Assembly: GCA_944381435.1 (NCBI GenBank) | Contig: CALWLD010000001.1 | Span: forward strand, 1-64,000 | Direction of reading: 5' to 3' | DNA from: an uncultured Clostridia bacterium | GTDB taxonomy: Bacteria > Bacillota > Clostridia > Lachnospirales > CAG-274 | Length of the DNA stretch: 64,000 nt | Shown: one piece after another, positions 3,555-35,727 of the stretch | Layout of the letters: each line of letters begins with the position of its first letter | How positions within the stretch are numbered: the first letter of the stretch is position 1 | Position numbers and translations under genes: made by a program | The notes under the pieces: model-generated | Databases searched by the model: none | What the model was told of the DNA's origin: nothing | The model's input: the letters and a program-made list of their open reading frames with translations, nothing else

Positions 3555-3589
3555 AAAAAGGTTGTAGACTTTTTGTCTACAACCTTTTT
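3555..3589 (+). terminator. Terminator of ftsZ, formed by the end of element B1
   Basis: A 15-bp perfect stem (3555-3569 with 3575-3589) with a five-T loop ends in a run of T, 6 bases after the ftsZ stop codon. The same sequence motif, GGTTGTAGAC, forms the 5' end of the dispersed element B, so the element appears to supply the terminator. Confidence 0.85.
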
Positions 3590-3721
3590 GTGATTATTAG
3601 ATTCTTTGCTTTAAGGAAAGGTTTTTGTAATTATCTAAACCAACACCCCCTTATGTGGGCACACACCGCACCCAGTGAAATATGGCTTAAATTTTTGATA
3701 GGTATTTATTTTGTCTACAAC
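3560..3721 (+). mobile_element. Dispersed element B, copy B1
   Basis: This is a non-coding element of about 160 bp. The left end GGTTGTAGAC and the right end GTCTACAAC are inverted repeats of each other. Inside is the block AAGGTTTTTGTAATTATCT, shared with copy B2, followed by a C-rich core (3641-3675) around a weak GTGGG/CCGCAC dyad and then ATGGCTTAAATTTTTGA, also shared with B2. The resemblance to a miniature inverted-repeat element is my inference; no transposase is present. Confidence 0.7.
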
Positions 3722-3732
3722 TTTTTTATTAA

Positions 3733-3876
3733 TTATAATTAAGGTACGACTTAATTTTTAGCAATTTATAAAATTGATAAATTATTAAAATTTATATAAG
3801 GCTTTTTGTATTAAATTTTAGTTAAATAAATTTTAGGAGTGCCTGTTTTTGAATACAAAGTATTCAAAAAATTGAT
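3733..3876 (+). repeat. Dispersed repeat A, copy A1
   Basis: This AT-rich repeat abuts the right end of B1. It begins with the dyad AATTAAGGTACGACTTAATT, continues through an AAATTTATATA...GTATTAAATTTTA segment and ends with the dyad TTTGAATACAAAGTATTCAA followed by AATTGAT. At least six further copies occur in the window. No reading frame is conserved. Confidence 0.8.
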
Positions 3877-3896
3877 TTATTTTAAAATATTACATA

Positions 3897-4604
3897 TTAA
3901 AAACTCTCGTTAATAGATATATATTGTAGGCTATTTATCCTGCTTAACTTCCTTAAGGCTATTTGATAAAAAATGCTTGTATCTTTAATAGGTAAAATAT
4001 CTATTGCTTTGCATAGTTTATCATAGCTTTTTATTTCTTCTTCTATTGCCAAAAGTAAGCTAGATTTAAAAGGGATATTCATATTTATATTTAAAGGCTT
4101 TTCTTCAAAGCTTTCATTTTTCAAATTTTTATAATAATCTTTTAAGGCTAAACATTGGGATAAACAATCATTGCTAATATTTTCTATTTTTTCGCAAACC
4201 TTGTTATTTTCACATTTTTTTATTAAGTTTTTATAAAATATATGGCTGTTAGCCTCATCTTGTATAAAATCTTCTATATAATTTAAAATTTCTAAATTGT
4301 TTTCTTTTAAATTTATGTTAGTTACATTTTGTTTGTTTTTTTCTATGTTTTGCTGTATTTCTTCGTTTATTTTATCAAGCTCTTCTTGGGTTAAAGGTTT
4401 TAAAGTTATATCTGATGGTTGGTTGTTTTGGTTAAACCCATTGTTTATATAAGGGTTTTGTACATTGTTAAATCTATTGTCTATATAAGGGTTTTGTACA
4501 TTGTTAAATCTATTGTCTATATAAGGGTTTTGTATATTGTTAAATCTATTGTTTATATAAGGATTTTGCATATTATTAAATCTATTATTAAAAAATAAGG
4601 GCAT
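3897..4604 (-). CDS. Ferritin-like domain protein with N-terminal Asn-rich repeats
   Basis: I do not recognise a named family for this 235-residue protein. Residues 6-55 are four near-perfect 12-residue repeats of the pattern NRFNNVQNPYID, followed by an Asn/Gln-rich stretch. From about residue 70 the protein is helical. YIEDFIQDEANSHIFYKNL (109-127) resembles the first helix of ferritin-like, spore-coat-associated proteins common in Clostridia, and a paired Glu-rich helix (AIEEEIKSYDKL) follows. The ATG is set by AGGAGG (reverse of 4611-4616). No signal peptide is visible. A coat or surface-structure role is plausible but unproven. It is a single-gene unit facing ftsZ. Confidence 0.65.
   Translation of the reverse strand: MPLFFNNRFNNMQNPYINNRFNNIQNPYIDNRFNNVQNPYIDNRFNNVQNPYINNGFNQNNQPSDITLKPLTQEELDKINEEIQQNIEKNKQNVTNINLKENNLEILNYIEDFIQDEANSHIFYKNLIKKCENNKVCEKIENISNDCLSQCLALKDYYKNLKNESFEEKPLNINMNIPFKSSLLLAIEEEIKSYDKLCKAIDILPIKDTSIFYQIALRKLSRINSLQYISINESF
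4433..4591 (-). repeat. 36-bp in-frame minisatellite
   Basis: About four direct 36-bp units encode the 12-residue NRFNNVQNPYI(D/N) repeats. Neighbouring units differ by only a few bases, so copy number could change by slippage or recombination without breaking the reading frame. Confidence 0.85.
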
Positions 4605-12167: not shown

Positions 12168-12301
12168 CTGTAGACAAAATAATATCAAAACCTTCTACCA
12201 TAAACATTTAAGCAATTAAAGGGTTCTAGGGCAAAGCCCTAGAATAAGGGTGGTGGGTGGGTTTAGATAATTACAAAAAAATTGTCGACAAAGTCGACAA
12301 T
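12168..12301 (-). mobile_element. Dispersed element B, copy B4
   Basis: Read on the minus strand, it starts with the hairpin ATTGTCGACTTTGTCGACAAT (arms 12281-12289 and 12293-12301). It continues with TTTTGTAATTATCTAAACC and the C-rich block CCCACCCACCACCC, then the hairpin TAGGGCTTTGCCCTA, and ends TTTTGTCTACAG at 12168. Total length is 134 bp. Ends match copies B1 and B2. Confidence 0.75.
12281..12301 (-). terminator. Terminator for the gene at 12319, formed by element B4
   Basis: This is a 9-bp perfect stem with a three-base loop followed on the minus strand by seven U. It lies 17 bp past the stop of the membrane-protein gene, so the element end again doubles as the host terminator. Confidence 0.7.
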
Positions 12302-19942: not shown

Positions 19943-21136
19943 ATAAAATCAAAAGACTTTATAAAAAATAACAAGAAATATTTTAAGCTTGGCTTATGTT
20001 TAGTTTTGGTAGCTATAATTACAATAGTTTTTTATCGCTCATCATCAAGGCTTGATATATCTATCACCATAAAAGAAACAAAGGATATATTATCCCCTTT
20101 TATATATGGTATAGGCATAGCTTATGTTTTAAACACAGGGCTTAAATTTTTAGAAAACAAGGTTTTTAACAAAATAAAATATTTAGATGATAAGAAAAAT
20201 TTAAAAAGAGGCCTTTCTATAACGACAGCTTATCTTTTGGTATTTAGCTTTTTGATTTGGCTTATAAGCTATCTTATACCTGAAGTACAAAAAAGCATAT
20301 TAGATGTATCAGAATATTTTAAAAACTTTGATATAAATGAAGTTGATAAAATGTTAAGAAAAAGCATACCTGTAGAAGAAGAAATTGTTTCAGAAATATC
20401 TAGCTATGTAAGCAACTTATTAAAAAGCTTTTTAGAAGAATTTCCTACTTATGTAAAAAATTTATTGCCTAGCATAAAAAGCTTATTATCTAGCGTAAAA
20501 AACATAGTTGATGTTTTATTAAACGTGATAGTAGGTATTGTTGTATCCATTTATATATTATTTGATAAAGAGGCTATCGCTAAAAGAACAAAATTTATAT
20601 TATATGCTATTTTATCAAGAAAAACATCAAAAGGTTTAATAGAATTTTTTAAAGAGGCTAACTATACTTTTGAAAAGTTTTTTGTTGGCAAAATAATAGA
20701 TTCTACCATAATAGGTATAATATTTTTTGTAGGTGCAACATTACTAAAAGCTCCTTTTGCAATGCTTCTAAGCATAATAATAGGCGTTACTAATATGATA
20801 CCATTTTTTGGACCTTTTATAGGTGCAGTTCCTGTTATATTTATTACATTGTTATTTGACATAACAAACCCTTTAAAAGCGGTTTGGATAGGTATTTTTA
20901 TACTTTTATTACAACAATTTGATGGAAATATATTAGGGCCTAAAATATTAGGCGATTCTATAGGCATTAAGCCTATTGGAATAATCTTTTCAATAATTGT
21001 AGGTGGATATATGTTTGGGCCTGCTGGTATGTTTTTTGGTGTACCTATATTTGCTGTTATATTCTCTGCTTTTAATGATTTTATAGATAAAAAATACAAG
21101 AAAAAATATGGAGTTGGTAACAATGAGATATCCTAA
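19943..21136 (+). CDS. AI-2E family transporter (UPF0118)
   Basis: This membrane protein of about 397 residues has two N-terminal helices, a central amphipathic or coiled region at about 100-190 and five or more C-terminal helices. The motif GVTNMIPFFGPFIG, followed by LLQQFDGNILGPKILGDSIG, is diagnostic of the AI-2E/PerM family. Members have been linked to signal export or Na+/H+ antiport; the substrate here is unknown. The start is odd. The only strong ribosome site (TAGGGGGTG, 19929-19937) precedes an ATA at 19943, while the in-frame TTG at 19904 has none. The frame overlaps the next gene. Confidence 0.85.
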   Translation: MKSKDFIKNNKKYFKLGLCLVLVAIITIVFYRSSSRLDISITIKETKDILSPFIYGIGIAYVLNTGLKFLENKVFNKIKYLDDKKNLKRGLSITTAYLLVFSFLIWLISYLIPEVQKSILDVSEYFKNFDINEVDKMLRKSIPVEEEIVSEISSYVSNLLKSFLEEFPTYVKNLLPSIKSLLSSVKNIVDVLLNVIVGIVVSIYILFDKEAIAKRTKFILYAILSRKTSKGLIEFFKEANYTFEKFFVGKIIDSTIIGIIFFVGATLLKAPFAMLLSIIIGVTNMIPFFGPFIGAVPVIFITLLFDITNPLKAVWIGIFILLLQQFDGNILGPKILGDSIGIKPIGIIFSIIVGGYMFGPAGMFFGVPIFAVIFSAFNDFIDKKYKKKYGVGNNEIS

Positions 21137-22043
21137 AAATGCTAATTTTTTTATGTTCTTTTTAATGATATTTTATATATTTATAGGTAATTTCATTTCA
21201 AAGTTTATAGTGGTAAATATGCCCTTTTTATTAACGAGAGAAAATATATGGATATATCAATCTAGCATTGCTATTGTTTGCTTTATATTGCCTATATTTA
21301 TATATATAATTGTAAAAAAGATACCTTTTAAGGAGGTTTTCCCGCTAGAGAAAATAAGCCTTAAAAACATAGTTTTAATAATTTTTATAAGCTTTACTAT
21401 TCAGCCTATGCTCCAGTTTATAGGGAGCATTACAAATTTATTTTATGAAGACAAAGTATCAGGCAGTATATATGTAATTGCTAGCCTAGGTCTTCCTAAA
21501 GCCTTGTTTACTACGGCTATAGTGCCTGCTGTAACAGAAGAGCTAGCTTTTAGAGGTGTTATATTATCAGGGTTTAAAAAATCTGGTTTTTTAGCAGGTA
21601 TCTTAATGAGTAGCTTATATTTTGGGCTAATGCATTTTACGCTAACACAACTTTTTTATGCAATAGTTGCAGGGGTTATATTTGCATTTTTAGTTAAAGT
21701 AACAAAATCTATATATTCTAGCATATTAATGCATTTTATATTTAACGGAACACAAATGACACTTGCATATTTTACTATAAAATATGTACCTAACATAGAA
21801 CAGCAAATATCTAACATAAGCTACAGCGTAAAAGACTTAATATATCCTTTTATACAGTTTTTAGTTTCTTTACCTTTTTTAGCTTTATCTATATATTTAT
21901 TTATAAAAAATAACAAAAAAGAAATAGAAGAGATAAAAGCAGAAGAAGTAAGAAAGGTTGAAAAAGAAAATGTTTTCACTGTTTTCTTTTATGTCAACAT
22001 TATAGTTTATATAGCTTATATGTTATTTTTAAAAATGAAATAA
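21123..22043 (+). CDS. CPBP-family intramembrane metalloprotease (Abi)
   Basis: This polytopic protein of about 306 residues shows the three CPBP motifs: EELAFRGVI (motif 1, glutamates), FGLMHF (motif 2, His) and HFIFNG (motif 3). The family cleaves prenylated or hydrophobic substrates in the membrane and includes bacteriocin-immunity proteins; the target here is unknown. An ATG at 21108 is in frame, but GGAG (21110-21113) precedes ATG 21123 at good spacing. It overlaps the AI-2E gene by 14 bp, so translation is coupled. The C-terminal end has a charged segment and a last helix. Confidence 0.88.
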   Translation: MRYPKNANFFMFFLMIFYIFIGNFISKFIVVNMPFLLTRENIWIYQSSIAIVCFILPIFIYIIVKKIPFKEVFPLEKISLKNIVLIIFISFTIQPMLQFIGSITNLFYEDKVSGSIYVIASLGLPKALFTTAIVPAVTEELAFRGVILSGFKKSGFLAGILMSSLYFGLMHFTLTQLFYAIVAGVIFAFLVKVTKSIYSSILMHFIFNGTQMTLAYFTIKYVPNIEQQISNISYSVKDLIYPFIQFLVSLPFLALSIYLFIKNNKKEIEEIKAEEVRKVEKENVFTVFFYVNIIVYIAYMLFLKMK

Positions 22044-22048
22044 TAAAA

Positions 22049-22083
22049 TTTAAAGCCCTATTGAGCATCAATAGGGCTTTAAA
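22049..22083 (+). terminator. Terminator of the CPBP gene (copy 1)
   Basis: This 16-bp perfect stem, TTTAAAGCCCTATTGA with TCAATAGGGCTTTAAA, has a GCA loop. It starts 5 bp after the stop codon. Twenty-eight bases of it recur at 22247-22274 on the far side of element B2. Confidence 0.85.
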
Positions 22084-22246
22084 TTGTCGACAAAGTTGAC
22101 AATCTTTTTGTAATTTTTAAATTTTTTGGTTTAATGCAAGGTTTTTGTAATTATCTAAACCCACCCACCGCCCTATGCGGGGACACCCCGCACCCCGTGA
22201 GCTATGGCTTAAATTTTTGAAAAATATTTATTTTGTCTACAGTCTG
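22082..22246 (+). mobile_element. Dispersed element B, copy B2, flanked by duplicated terminator
   Basis: This is a 165-bp element. The left end is TTGTCGACAAAG inside the dyad ATTGTCGAC...GTTGACAAT, and the right end is TTTTGTCTACAGTCTG. Inside are AAGGTTTTTGTAATTATCT, a C-rich block and the hairpin GCGGGGACACCCCGC (22178-22192). The identical 28-bp direct repeats on both sides (22054-22081 and 22247-22274) are the host terminator hairpin. This looks like insertion with target duplication. Confidence 0.75.
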
Positions 22247-22271
22247 AGCCCTATTGAGCATCAATAGGGCT
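22247..22271 (-). terminator. Terminator copy 2, serving the SLOG gene
   Basis: This hairpin, AGCCCTATTGA with TCAATAGGGCT and a GCA loop, is identical in its core to the one at 22049. It lies 6 bp past the stop of the minus-strand gene at 22278, for which it is correctly placed, although no U-tract follows on that strand. Confidence 0.6.
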
Positions 22272-22277
22272 TTAGGT

Positions 22278-22814
22278 TTAAAATTTAATATGTTTATATT
22301 TTTCAATTTTTGGTACATCAATGATGATTACTTCTTTATTTTCTTTCATAGCATAGCTTAAAGTACTTCTTGTGCCACTTCTTTTAAATTTTAGGTTATA
22401 TACACCTAAAACAACGGTAGATTTATCTACAAGATATTTATTTCTTTTAAGATAACAATCTTCTGTATATTCTTCTTGTAATTTAATAATTTTGGTGCTA
22501 TTATCTAGTACATTTTTTAAACGTTTTTTATAGATTTCATTCCAGTTTTTATGGTGTTCATTACAAGGGATAACAGAAAAAAGGTTTATATCATTATATT
22601 TTTCTTTTAGTTGTATTACTATTTCAGCACACCATATATCAACTCCCATAGCACAACCAGTTAAAAAGTATTTAACACCATCTAAATATAGGTTTTCAAT
22701 TTCTTTTATTAGCATAGCTTTTAACCTAATACAATCTATATGCTCCTCATTGTTTTTAAAAGTAAATTTTTCAGGTCTGTGTCCTGTAAAAGAACAAACT
22801 TTAGTTGTATTCAT
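22278..22814 (-). CDS. SLOG-fold protein of the DUF1273/YpsA family
   Basis: This 178-residue protein opens with CSFTGHRPEKF, the nucleotide-binding glycine loop of DUF1273. It continues with FLTGCAMGVDIWCAE, the second phosphate-binding motif. The C-terminal third (VLGVYNLKFKRSGTRSTLSYA) completes the Rossmann-like fold. SLOG proteins bind or cleave nucleotide-derived ligands such as NAD or ADP-ribose, and several take part in conflict systems. YpsA itself affects cell division in Bacillus. It is divergently arranged with a ribbon-helix-helix gene, sharing a regulatory gap with a 19-bp perfect palindrome, so those proteins may control it. Confidence 0.88.
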   Translation of the reverse strand: MNTTKVCSFTGHRPEKFTFKNNEEHIDCIRLKAMLIKEIENLYLDGVKYFLTGCAMGVDIWCAEIVIQLKEKYNDINLFSVIPCNEHHKNWNEIYKKRLKNVLDNSTKIIKLQEEYTEDCYLKRNKYLVDKSTVVLGVYNLKFKRSGTRSTLSYAMKENKEVIIIDVPKIEKYKHIKF

Positions 22815-35373: not shown

Positions 35374-35395
35374 AGTGAAGGCTTTTGTATTCACT
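35374..35395 (+). terminator. rpmF terminator hairpin, copy 1 (lost T-tract)
   Basis: AGTGAAGGC...TTCACT forms a hairpin 18 bp after rpmF. It is followed by GGAGGTTGTAGAC, the end of element B3, not by T. A near-identical hairpin with the T-tract sits at 35699-35727, beyond the element. Confidence 0.6.
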
Positions 35396-35698
35396 GGAGG
35401 TTGTAGACTTTGTCTACAACCTTTTTGTTTGTTACAATTAAGGTACGACTTAATTTATTTAGGTAAAATTTATATATGGTTTTCTGTATTAAATTTTAAT
35501 TAAATAAATTTTAGGAGTACCTGTTTTTTAATATAAAGTATTCAAAGAATTGATAATTATTAGATTTTGGTCTTTAATGTAAGGTTTTGGAAATTATCTA
35601 AAACTACCACCACCATTATTTTGAGGAACTCCAAAGCCCTGTGACCTATCCCTTAAATTTTTTAATTGGATTTTAAATATTATTTTGTTTACAGCCTG
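35396..35698 (+). mobile_element. Dispersed element B, copy B3, interrupted by repeat A5
   Basis: The left end GGTTGTAGACTTTGTCTACA with CCTTTTTG is followed by repeat A5 (35432-35556). The B sequence then resumes with TTATTAGATTTTGGTCTTTA, the AATTATCTAAAAC block and a C-rich core, and ends TTTTGTTTACAGCCTG. Removing A5 leaves about 178 bp, close to B1 and B2. The terminator hairpin is present on both sides. Confidence 0.7.
35432..35556 (+). repeat. Dispersed repeat A, copy A5 (nested in B3)
   Basis: This full copy begins TTACAATTAAGGTACGACTT, passes through TTTATATATGGTTTTCTGTA and ends ATAAAGTATTCAAAGAATTG. Its position inside B3 shows that A arrived after B at this site. Confidence 0.8.
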
Positions 35699-35727
35699 AG
35701 TGAAAGCTTTTGTCTTCACTCTTTTTT
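35699..35727 (+). terminator. rpmF terminator hairpin, copy 2 (with T-tract)
   Basis: AGTGAAAGC...TTCACT (35699-35720) matches copy 1 at 20 of 22 positions and is followed by CTTTTTT. It is probably the original 3' part of the rpmF terminator, displaced by B3. Confidence 0.7.

Follow-up and report, generated by a model that had tools for sequence, protein, structure and literature searches.

A probable gene-less IS1182-type element flanked by copies of its target hairpin in an uncultured Clostridia genome

Results

The window analyzed here, a stretch of 64,000 nucleotides from an uncultured Clostridia bacterium, contains two identical hairpins between a pair of convergent genes, one encoding a CPBP/Rce1-like protease (21108-22043, + strand) and the other a YpsA-type SLOG protein (22278-22814, - strand). 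As an earlier note on this DNA had stated, the 28-bp sequence AGCCCTATTGAGCATCAATAGGGCTTTA at 22054-22081 recurs exactly (28/28) at 22247-22274, with 165 bp between the copies; we list the pair, without strand, as a target-site duplication. The note also took both copies for the terminator of this intergenic region, and both do fold as strong hairpins between the convergent genes: -23.6 kcal/mol (z -7.6) for the left copy with its flanks (full stem 22047-22085) and -18.3 kcal/mol (z -4.2) for the right copy. Within the window the hairpin core, GCCCTATTGAGC, occurs in these two flanks and nowhere else.

The intervening 165 bp (22082-22246, + strand), element B2, correspond to a non-autonomous IS1182-type element (MITE), as judged from BLAST against the whole genome and from ends in common with intact IS1182 elements. 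The interior holds no open reading frame of at least 60 amino acids in the ORF listing, and an Rfam scan of the window recovered only the SRP RNA and two tRNAs, with no match at the gathering threshold inside B2. Folded as DNA, the whole of B2 does slightly better than shuffled sequences (z -2.1). A reading of the body as a structured RNA is disfavored by this value and by the variation of bodies among subfamilies and genera, where ends and insertion mode stay constant. The GC-rich core of the B2 subfamily body, CCCACCCACCGCCCTATGCGGGGACACCCCGCACCC (22160-22195, + strand), is common to many copies and replaced in other subfamilies; the minus strand of 22160-22182 reads GGGCGGTGGGTGGG, a possible quadruplex-forming run that many copies retain.

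The ends of B2 had been described as inverted repeats found also in three other places in the window (B1, B3 and B4). Related ends are indeed present there, but the repeats are imperfect, TTGTCGACAAAG (22084) and TTTTGTCTACAG (22231) agreeing at 9/12 positions by eye, and the right end runs further than was thought, to ...CTACAGTCTG at 22246. The right terminal inverted repeat, TTTTGTCTACAGTCTG, lies at 22231-22246 (+ strand) with CTG as its outer end; reverse-complemented, it reads CAGACTGTAGACAAA, the terminal sequence of an intact IS1182 element in genome G105, described below. The left terminal inverted repeat (22082-22104, + strand) is itself a hairpin, AATTGTCGACAAAGTTGACAATC, that is, AATTGTCGAC AAA GTTGACAATC, with a fold of -8.4 kcal/mol. 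It is followed by T5 at 22105-22109 and is without the usual leading CAG/GAG triplet.

Among the four window copies, only B2 and B4 have a duplicated hairpin. B4 (35396-35698, + strand) is a longer relative of 303 bp with the same right end and an extra, unrelated repeat inside; it lies after rpmF between the target hairpins agtgaaggcttttgtattcact (35374-35395) and agtgaaagcttttgtcttcact (35699-35720), both listed without strand and 20/22 identical. B1 (3571-3720, + strand) is a family member directly 3' of ftsZ with no clear separate hairpin duplication. For B3 (12168-12293, - strand), a member with another body type, no duplicated hairpin was found; its left flank resembles a half-hairpin (aaagggtgaagactttGAG) and its right hairpin is different, so that B3 could be a stem-loop-deleting insertion of the IS1272 kind. 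Also near terminators is another intergenic repeat of roughly 150 bp, acaattaaggtacgacttaattt...ttttaggagtgcctgtttttgaatacaaagtattcaaaaaattgattta, which occurs in the window at about 3730-3900 and 35430-35570, at further loci (L012, L003, L008, L181 and L182) and in congeners. Its hairpin, aattaaggtacgacttaattta, is the target duplication at C16:39299.

The genome (2.16 Mb, 38 contigs, 98.8% complete) holds many more copies. BLAST of the B2 region returned 59 places, several of them fragments of a single copy, and a search for the right-end pattern TATTTTGTCTACAGTCTGA that allowed 3 mismatches matched 47 places, as against 2 for the reversed-pattern control. We put the family at about 40-45 right-end places, some of those with 3 mismatches being chance matches. 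Most copies have the B2 right end, and the same ends go with several bodies, among them the B2 type, whose core is CCCACCCACC...GCGGGGACACCCCGC, and a CTAGGGCTTCGCCCTAGAACCC type. The typical left end is (C/G)AGATTGTCGACAAAG, which with the reverse-complemented right end makes terminal inverted repeats. The family thus has what is expected of MITEs: elements that are short, as B2 is, present in dozens of places and without a transposase gene, with target-site duplications and element-free sites in relatives. Seven congeners have 0-3 matches each, and this suggests that the family has expanded recently in the present lineage. Where ORFs could be classified on both sides by simple ORF calling, 43/45 right ends adjoin the 3' end of at least one neighbor; 24 of these 45 lie between convergent ORFs and 2 between divergent ones, a placement that fits terminators as targets.

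The earlier note had called for a genome-wide list of copies with their flanks, and this list reveals the duplication as a pattern beyond chance. At each of 48 right-end places (the 47 pattern places and B1) the sequence that follows the right end was matched to the 450 bp that precede it, and a direct repeat scoring at least 13 (13-32 bp), mostly a hairpin, flanks 28/48. Flanks paired from different copies gave a control median of 9 and a 95th percentile of 14, a tail made heavy by the resemblance among terminators in this genome. The flanking hairpins vary between copies and are identical or nearly so on both sides of each copy, as in C4:40604 (28/28), C1:138701 (29/29), C9:26615 (22/22) and C7:10900 (31/32), besides B2; examples of the repeats are AAGGCTATAGATAAAAATCTATAGCCTT (28/28) and TAATGCTATAGGCTTTGCCTATAGCATTT (29/29). 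Usually the repeat follows directly on the right-end CTG and, on the other side, reaches as far as the element's left end. About 20/48 right-end places show no clear duplication.

When the flanks were rejoined around one copy of the repeat, a hairpin resulted at 30/31 strong-repeat sites from this genome and other genera, compared with 15% of random window pieces passing the same hairpin score; targeting of palindromes or hairpins, a trait reported for some IS1182-family members, is thus seen here. The repeat midpoint lies at most 2 nt from the hairpin dyad in 28/31 sites (counted by hand from the offset table), and therefore the duplication follows the hairpin. Repeat length is 21-32 bp at nearly all sites and tracks hairpin length. 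Removal of a stem-loop with no duplication, as by IS1272, is not the mode seen at the duplicated sites, where whole hairpins are mostly what is repeated.

The left terminal repeat, a 10-3-10 hairpin followed by T-runs, appears to be maintained as a hairpin. Across 24 distinct copies, 92% of stem cells are paired, as against 19-48% when the alignment is slid, a percentage biased upward by the choice of sequences as hairpins with at least 8 pairs. Cells changed on both sides number 24 vs 8.4 in shuffles, with a score of 0.323 vs 0.133; this excess of two-sided change is the more informative part, although relatedness among copies can also raise it. With a hairpin for its left end, the element is itself a potential target. 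Composite or nested copies occur at C5:35495-35872 (L046/L018), C7:19928-20277 (L045) and C20:29783-30024 (L044), apparently from insertion into or beside the hairpin end of another copy. Five copies are without the left terminal repeat: C12:19526 (L012), C16:42831 (L020), C7:10900 (L072), C6:63724 (L071) and C7:63912 (L065). In these, the target hairpin's T-run passes straight into an internal T-run of the body, and they may have arisen by deletion between T-runs or by another mode of insertion.

Sites without the element were sought in the congeners and a sister species, with one genome per species. In the region after rpmF that holds hairpin-B4-hairpin in this genome, six congeners (G001, G002, G004, G005, G006 and G007) show a strong terminator and lack the element; as the hairpins vary in sequence from species to species, the comparison establishes the absence of the element and a single terminator, not an identical hairpin. 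After ftsZ, the site of B1, a hairpin without an element is present in four congeners (G001, G003, G005 and G006). For the B2 locus, a CPBP protein search of genome contigs gave two related loci, one of them usable at the 3' end: the sister-species CPBP locus (62% identity), with one hairpin, no element and a different downstream gene. One terminator in relatives (rpmF, CPBP) thus stands against two hairpin copies here, the arrangement the earlier note had proposed looking for; we observed neither of the two outcomes it had named as counting against its reading, namely relatives that all carry the element between unrelated hairpins, or a duplication shared where the element is absent.

Similar elements extend beyond the genus. 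The pattern TTTKTCKACAGTCTGA occurs in 18/48 genomes of the family, at up to 39 places per genome, while the reversed control gave none. The bodies are unrelated to that of B2, and most intact copies carry their own hairpin on both sides, as in the layout ATGTAAATAAGTTTTTTATTTACAT, CAGCGTGTCGACAAAG...CTACAGTCTG, ATGTAAATAAGTTTTTTATTTACAT; these copies also show that the outer ends of the element are CAG...CTG. Where the right end is exact and the sequence upstream is long enough (27 loci), 16/27 repeats exceed the 99th percentile of the control (15), and in most the repeat is a whole hairpin of 20-32 bp. Five genomes with 13-39 exact element ends each (G020, G044, G047, G048 and G049) gave no match to NCBIfam transpos_IS1182 (NF033551), and in these genomes the number of elements does not look tied to the presence of a transposase.

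The same ends and the same duplication are found with intact IS1182 elements of related genomes. In G105 (L194), from another family of the order, a 1.65-kb insertion sequence with perfect ends (CAGACTGTAGACAAAG...CTTTGTCTACAGTCTG) carries an open frame of 488 aa whose product is related to the G012 transposase, and the 22-bp hairpin AAGAGACCATTTATGGTCTCTT stands exactly on both sides. In G012 (L117), one 25-bp hairpin occurs three times, in the order hairpin-IS1182-hairpin-MITE-hairpin; the transposase scores 416 bits against NF033551 (cut-off 270) and matches DDE_Tnp_1_6 and DUF772. In G015 (L128, L123), an IS1182 element split over two contigs has the 29-bp hairpin AAATGAGCTACTAATTTAGTAGCTCATTT outside each end. 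The G105 and G015 elements have the end sequence of the B2 family. The direct-repeat search at IS1182 loci found G012 only, and anchoring on end pairs added G105.

Other IS1182 copies are arranged differently. Those in G184 (L192), G163 (L193), G119 (L197) and G043 (L165) are flanked by two different hairpins, one at each end; possible explanations are recombination among copies, an error of assembly, insertion between two terminators or another insertion mode. The G024 copy has a hairpin at one end only. Searches with NF033551 and PF13751 found no IS1182 transposase in the B2 genome, for all its high completeness, or in the seven congeners, where a weak fragment in G007 is the sole trace; PF13751 matched 1/14 control genomes, and the search with it may be weak. 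We therefore infer the mobilizing enzyme from the end sequence.

Discussion

The earlier note explained this locus by a mobile element that takes a terminator as its insertion site and leaves the hairpin duplicated, and the family of copies, the copy-specific repeats and the element-free sites in relatives all support this explanation. What that note missed is the identity of the ends as IS1182 ends, the same duplication by intact IS1182 elements in related genomes, and the terminator-like hairpin at the left end. B2 is very probably a gene-less IS1182-family MITE, presumably mobilized in trans and inserted at a terminator hairpin by a shape-directed process in which the whole hairpin was duplicated. 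The enzyme moving B2 in trans would be a DDE transposase of the IS1182 type that is no longer found in the B2 genome, and it may select the bidirectional CPBP/SLOG terminator hairpin by its shape, as a cruciform or a single-strand fold. Each 3' end of the element would then be joined to one target strand, at opposite hairpin feet, in a staggered strand transfer, and gap repair would copy the whole hairpin to both sides of the element.

The variety of hairpins around copies with constant ends suggests that hairpin shape, not sequence, marks the insertion site. Most DDE transposases make a target duplication of near-fixed length that is set by the protein, and ISfinder gives variable direct repeats (0-60 bp) for IS1182. 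Since the duplication here is mostly 21-32 bp, tracks the hairpin and is centered on its dyad, it appears to be the shape of the target that determines where both cuts fall. Alternatively, an IS1182-type MITE may be guided by sequence or A/T content, or may insert via single-stranded DNA at the replication fork, the hairpin merely marking a permissive place. The first base of most repeats is A, and since terminators have A-rich and T-rich runs at their feet, a purine or A preference at the foot could help to set the ends. However, a sequence rule alone would not be expected to yield repeats that follow hairpin length and center on the dyad at nearly all sites, and we consider this alternative rather unlikely.

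An origin of the two terminators in local tandem duplication or in gene conversion, with the 165 bp as plain intergenic sequence or an RNA gene native to the site, is highly improbable. Terminators in this genome are often alike (GTGAAGACAAAGTCTTCAC and variants) and convergent genes often have two of them, but the 165 bp recurs genome-wide with constant ends between different hairpins, congeners have orthologous sites without it, intact insertion sequences behave alike, and the element has no Rfam match at the gathering threshold. For the family as a whole, copy-specific duplications at unrelated loci refute tandem duplication. It is likewise hardly credible that the hairpin belongs to the element, which would then be a hairpin-body-hairpin unit inserted without duplication: the left end is a hairpin with covarying stems, but the outer hairpins differ entirely between copies and are locus-specific, while the inner ends are constant. 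Palindromes and terminators are also targets of IS200/IS605, IS110/IS1111 and group IIC intron systems, but a relative of these (an IS200/IS605-type TnpA, an IS110/IS1111-type system or a group IIC intron) is a most improbable agent here, as they are not known to make a long target duplication, the B2 ends match IS1182 elements base for base, and no Rfam match was found in the element. One account describes REP sequences as targeted by IS elements (PMC1525189).

For a gene-less element inserted by an IS1182-type enzyme at terminators, the gene-end position probably does little harm and leaves a terminator on both sides of the insertion, which may help to explain how about 40 copies have accumulated. 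The arrangement also suggests an annotation rule, in which an identical hairpin pair around an insert of 130-300 bp flags such elements; Rfam did not detect them here.

Hairpin targeting by IS1182-family elements and IS1182-type MITEs are already published. In the open-licence literature, a scope with the main IS reviews outside it, we found no report of whole-hairpin duplication by an IS1182 element or MITE, nor any of the MITEs described here. The insertion sequences of G105, G012 and G015 are like B2 in whole-hairpin duplication (22, 25 and 29 bp) and in the terminal inverted repeat, which for G105 is CAGACTGTAGACAAA; they differ in size (1.5-1.65 kb where complete), in having a transposase gene and in belonging to other genera, G105 to another family. 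MITEPye1 of Paracoccus yeei has ends that match the IS1182 family, 4-bp direct repeats and 1-3 copies per chromosome (PMC11578231). Both it and the B2 family are IS1182-type-ended MITEs, whereas MITEPye1 is low-copy and no hairpin duplication is reported for it. The pneumococcal SPRITE, RUP and BOX repeats can be likened to the B2 family by description only: as portrayed in one account, they are small intergenic repeats, one class of them terminator-like, that cluster and insert into one another (PMC10969869). Their hosts are different, and the portions of that account that bear on this likeness mention no hairpin-sized target duplication (PMC10969869).

The closest precedent is IS1272/TnSha1 of Staphylococcus, an IS1182-family system that targets hairpins and terminators without sequence specificity and inserts just 3' of genes (PMC4923244, PMC5678879); the earlier note was right that IS families with such targets are known. 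By the literature assignment the transposase family is the same as that implicated here, as are the hairpin or terminator targets and the gene-end insertions. The difference lies in the fate of the stem-loop, which is deleted or replaced with no target duplication in IS1272/TnSha1 and duplicated whole here. The 2017 study of IS1272 drew three outcomes in its Fig. 13, with whole-hairpin duplication as hypothetical pathway 6b (PMC5678879), and the pattern here is what pathway b of that model predicts. Somewhat more tentatively than for B2 itself, we favor the broader view that in this IS1182 clade and its MITEs the target fold sets both strand-transfer points, making these elements a natural stem-loop-duplicating branch of the IS1272 model. 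If so, the size of the duplication is the size of the hairpin, each insertion makes one terminator into two, and the hairpin end that the element brings with it is a new target. The duplicating mode would then complement the stem-loop deletion of IS1272, and the pathways of the model could be compared within one transposase family.
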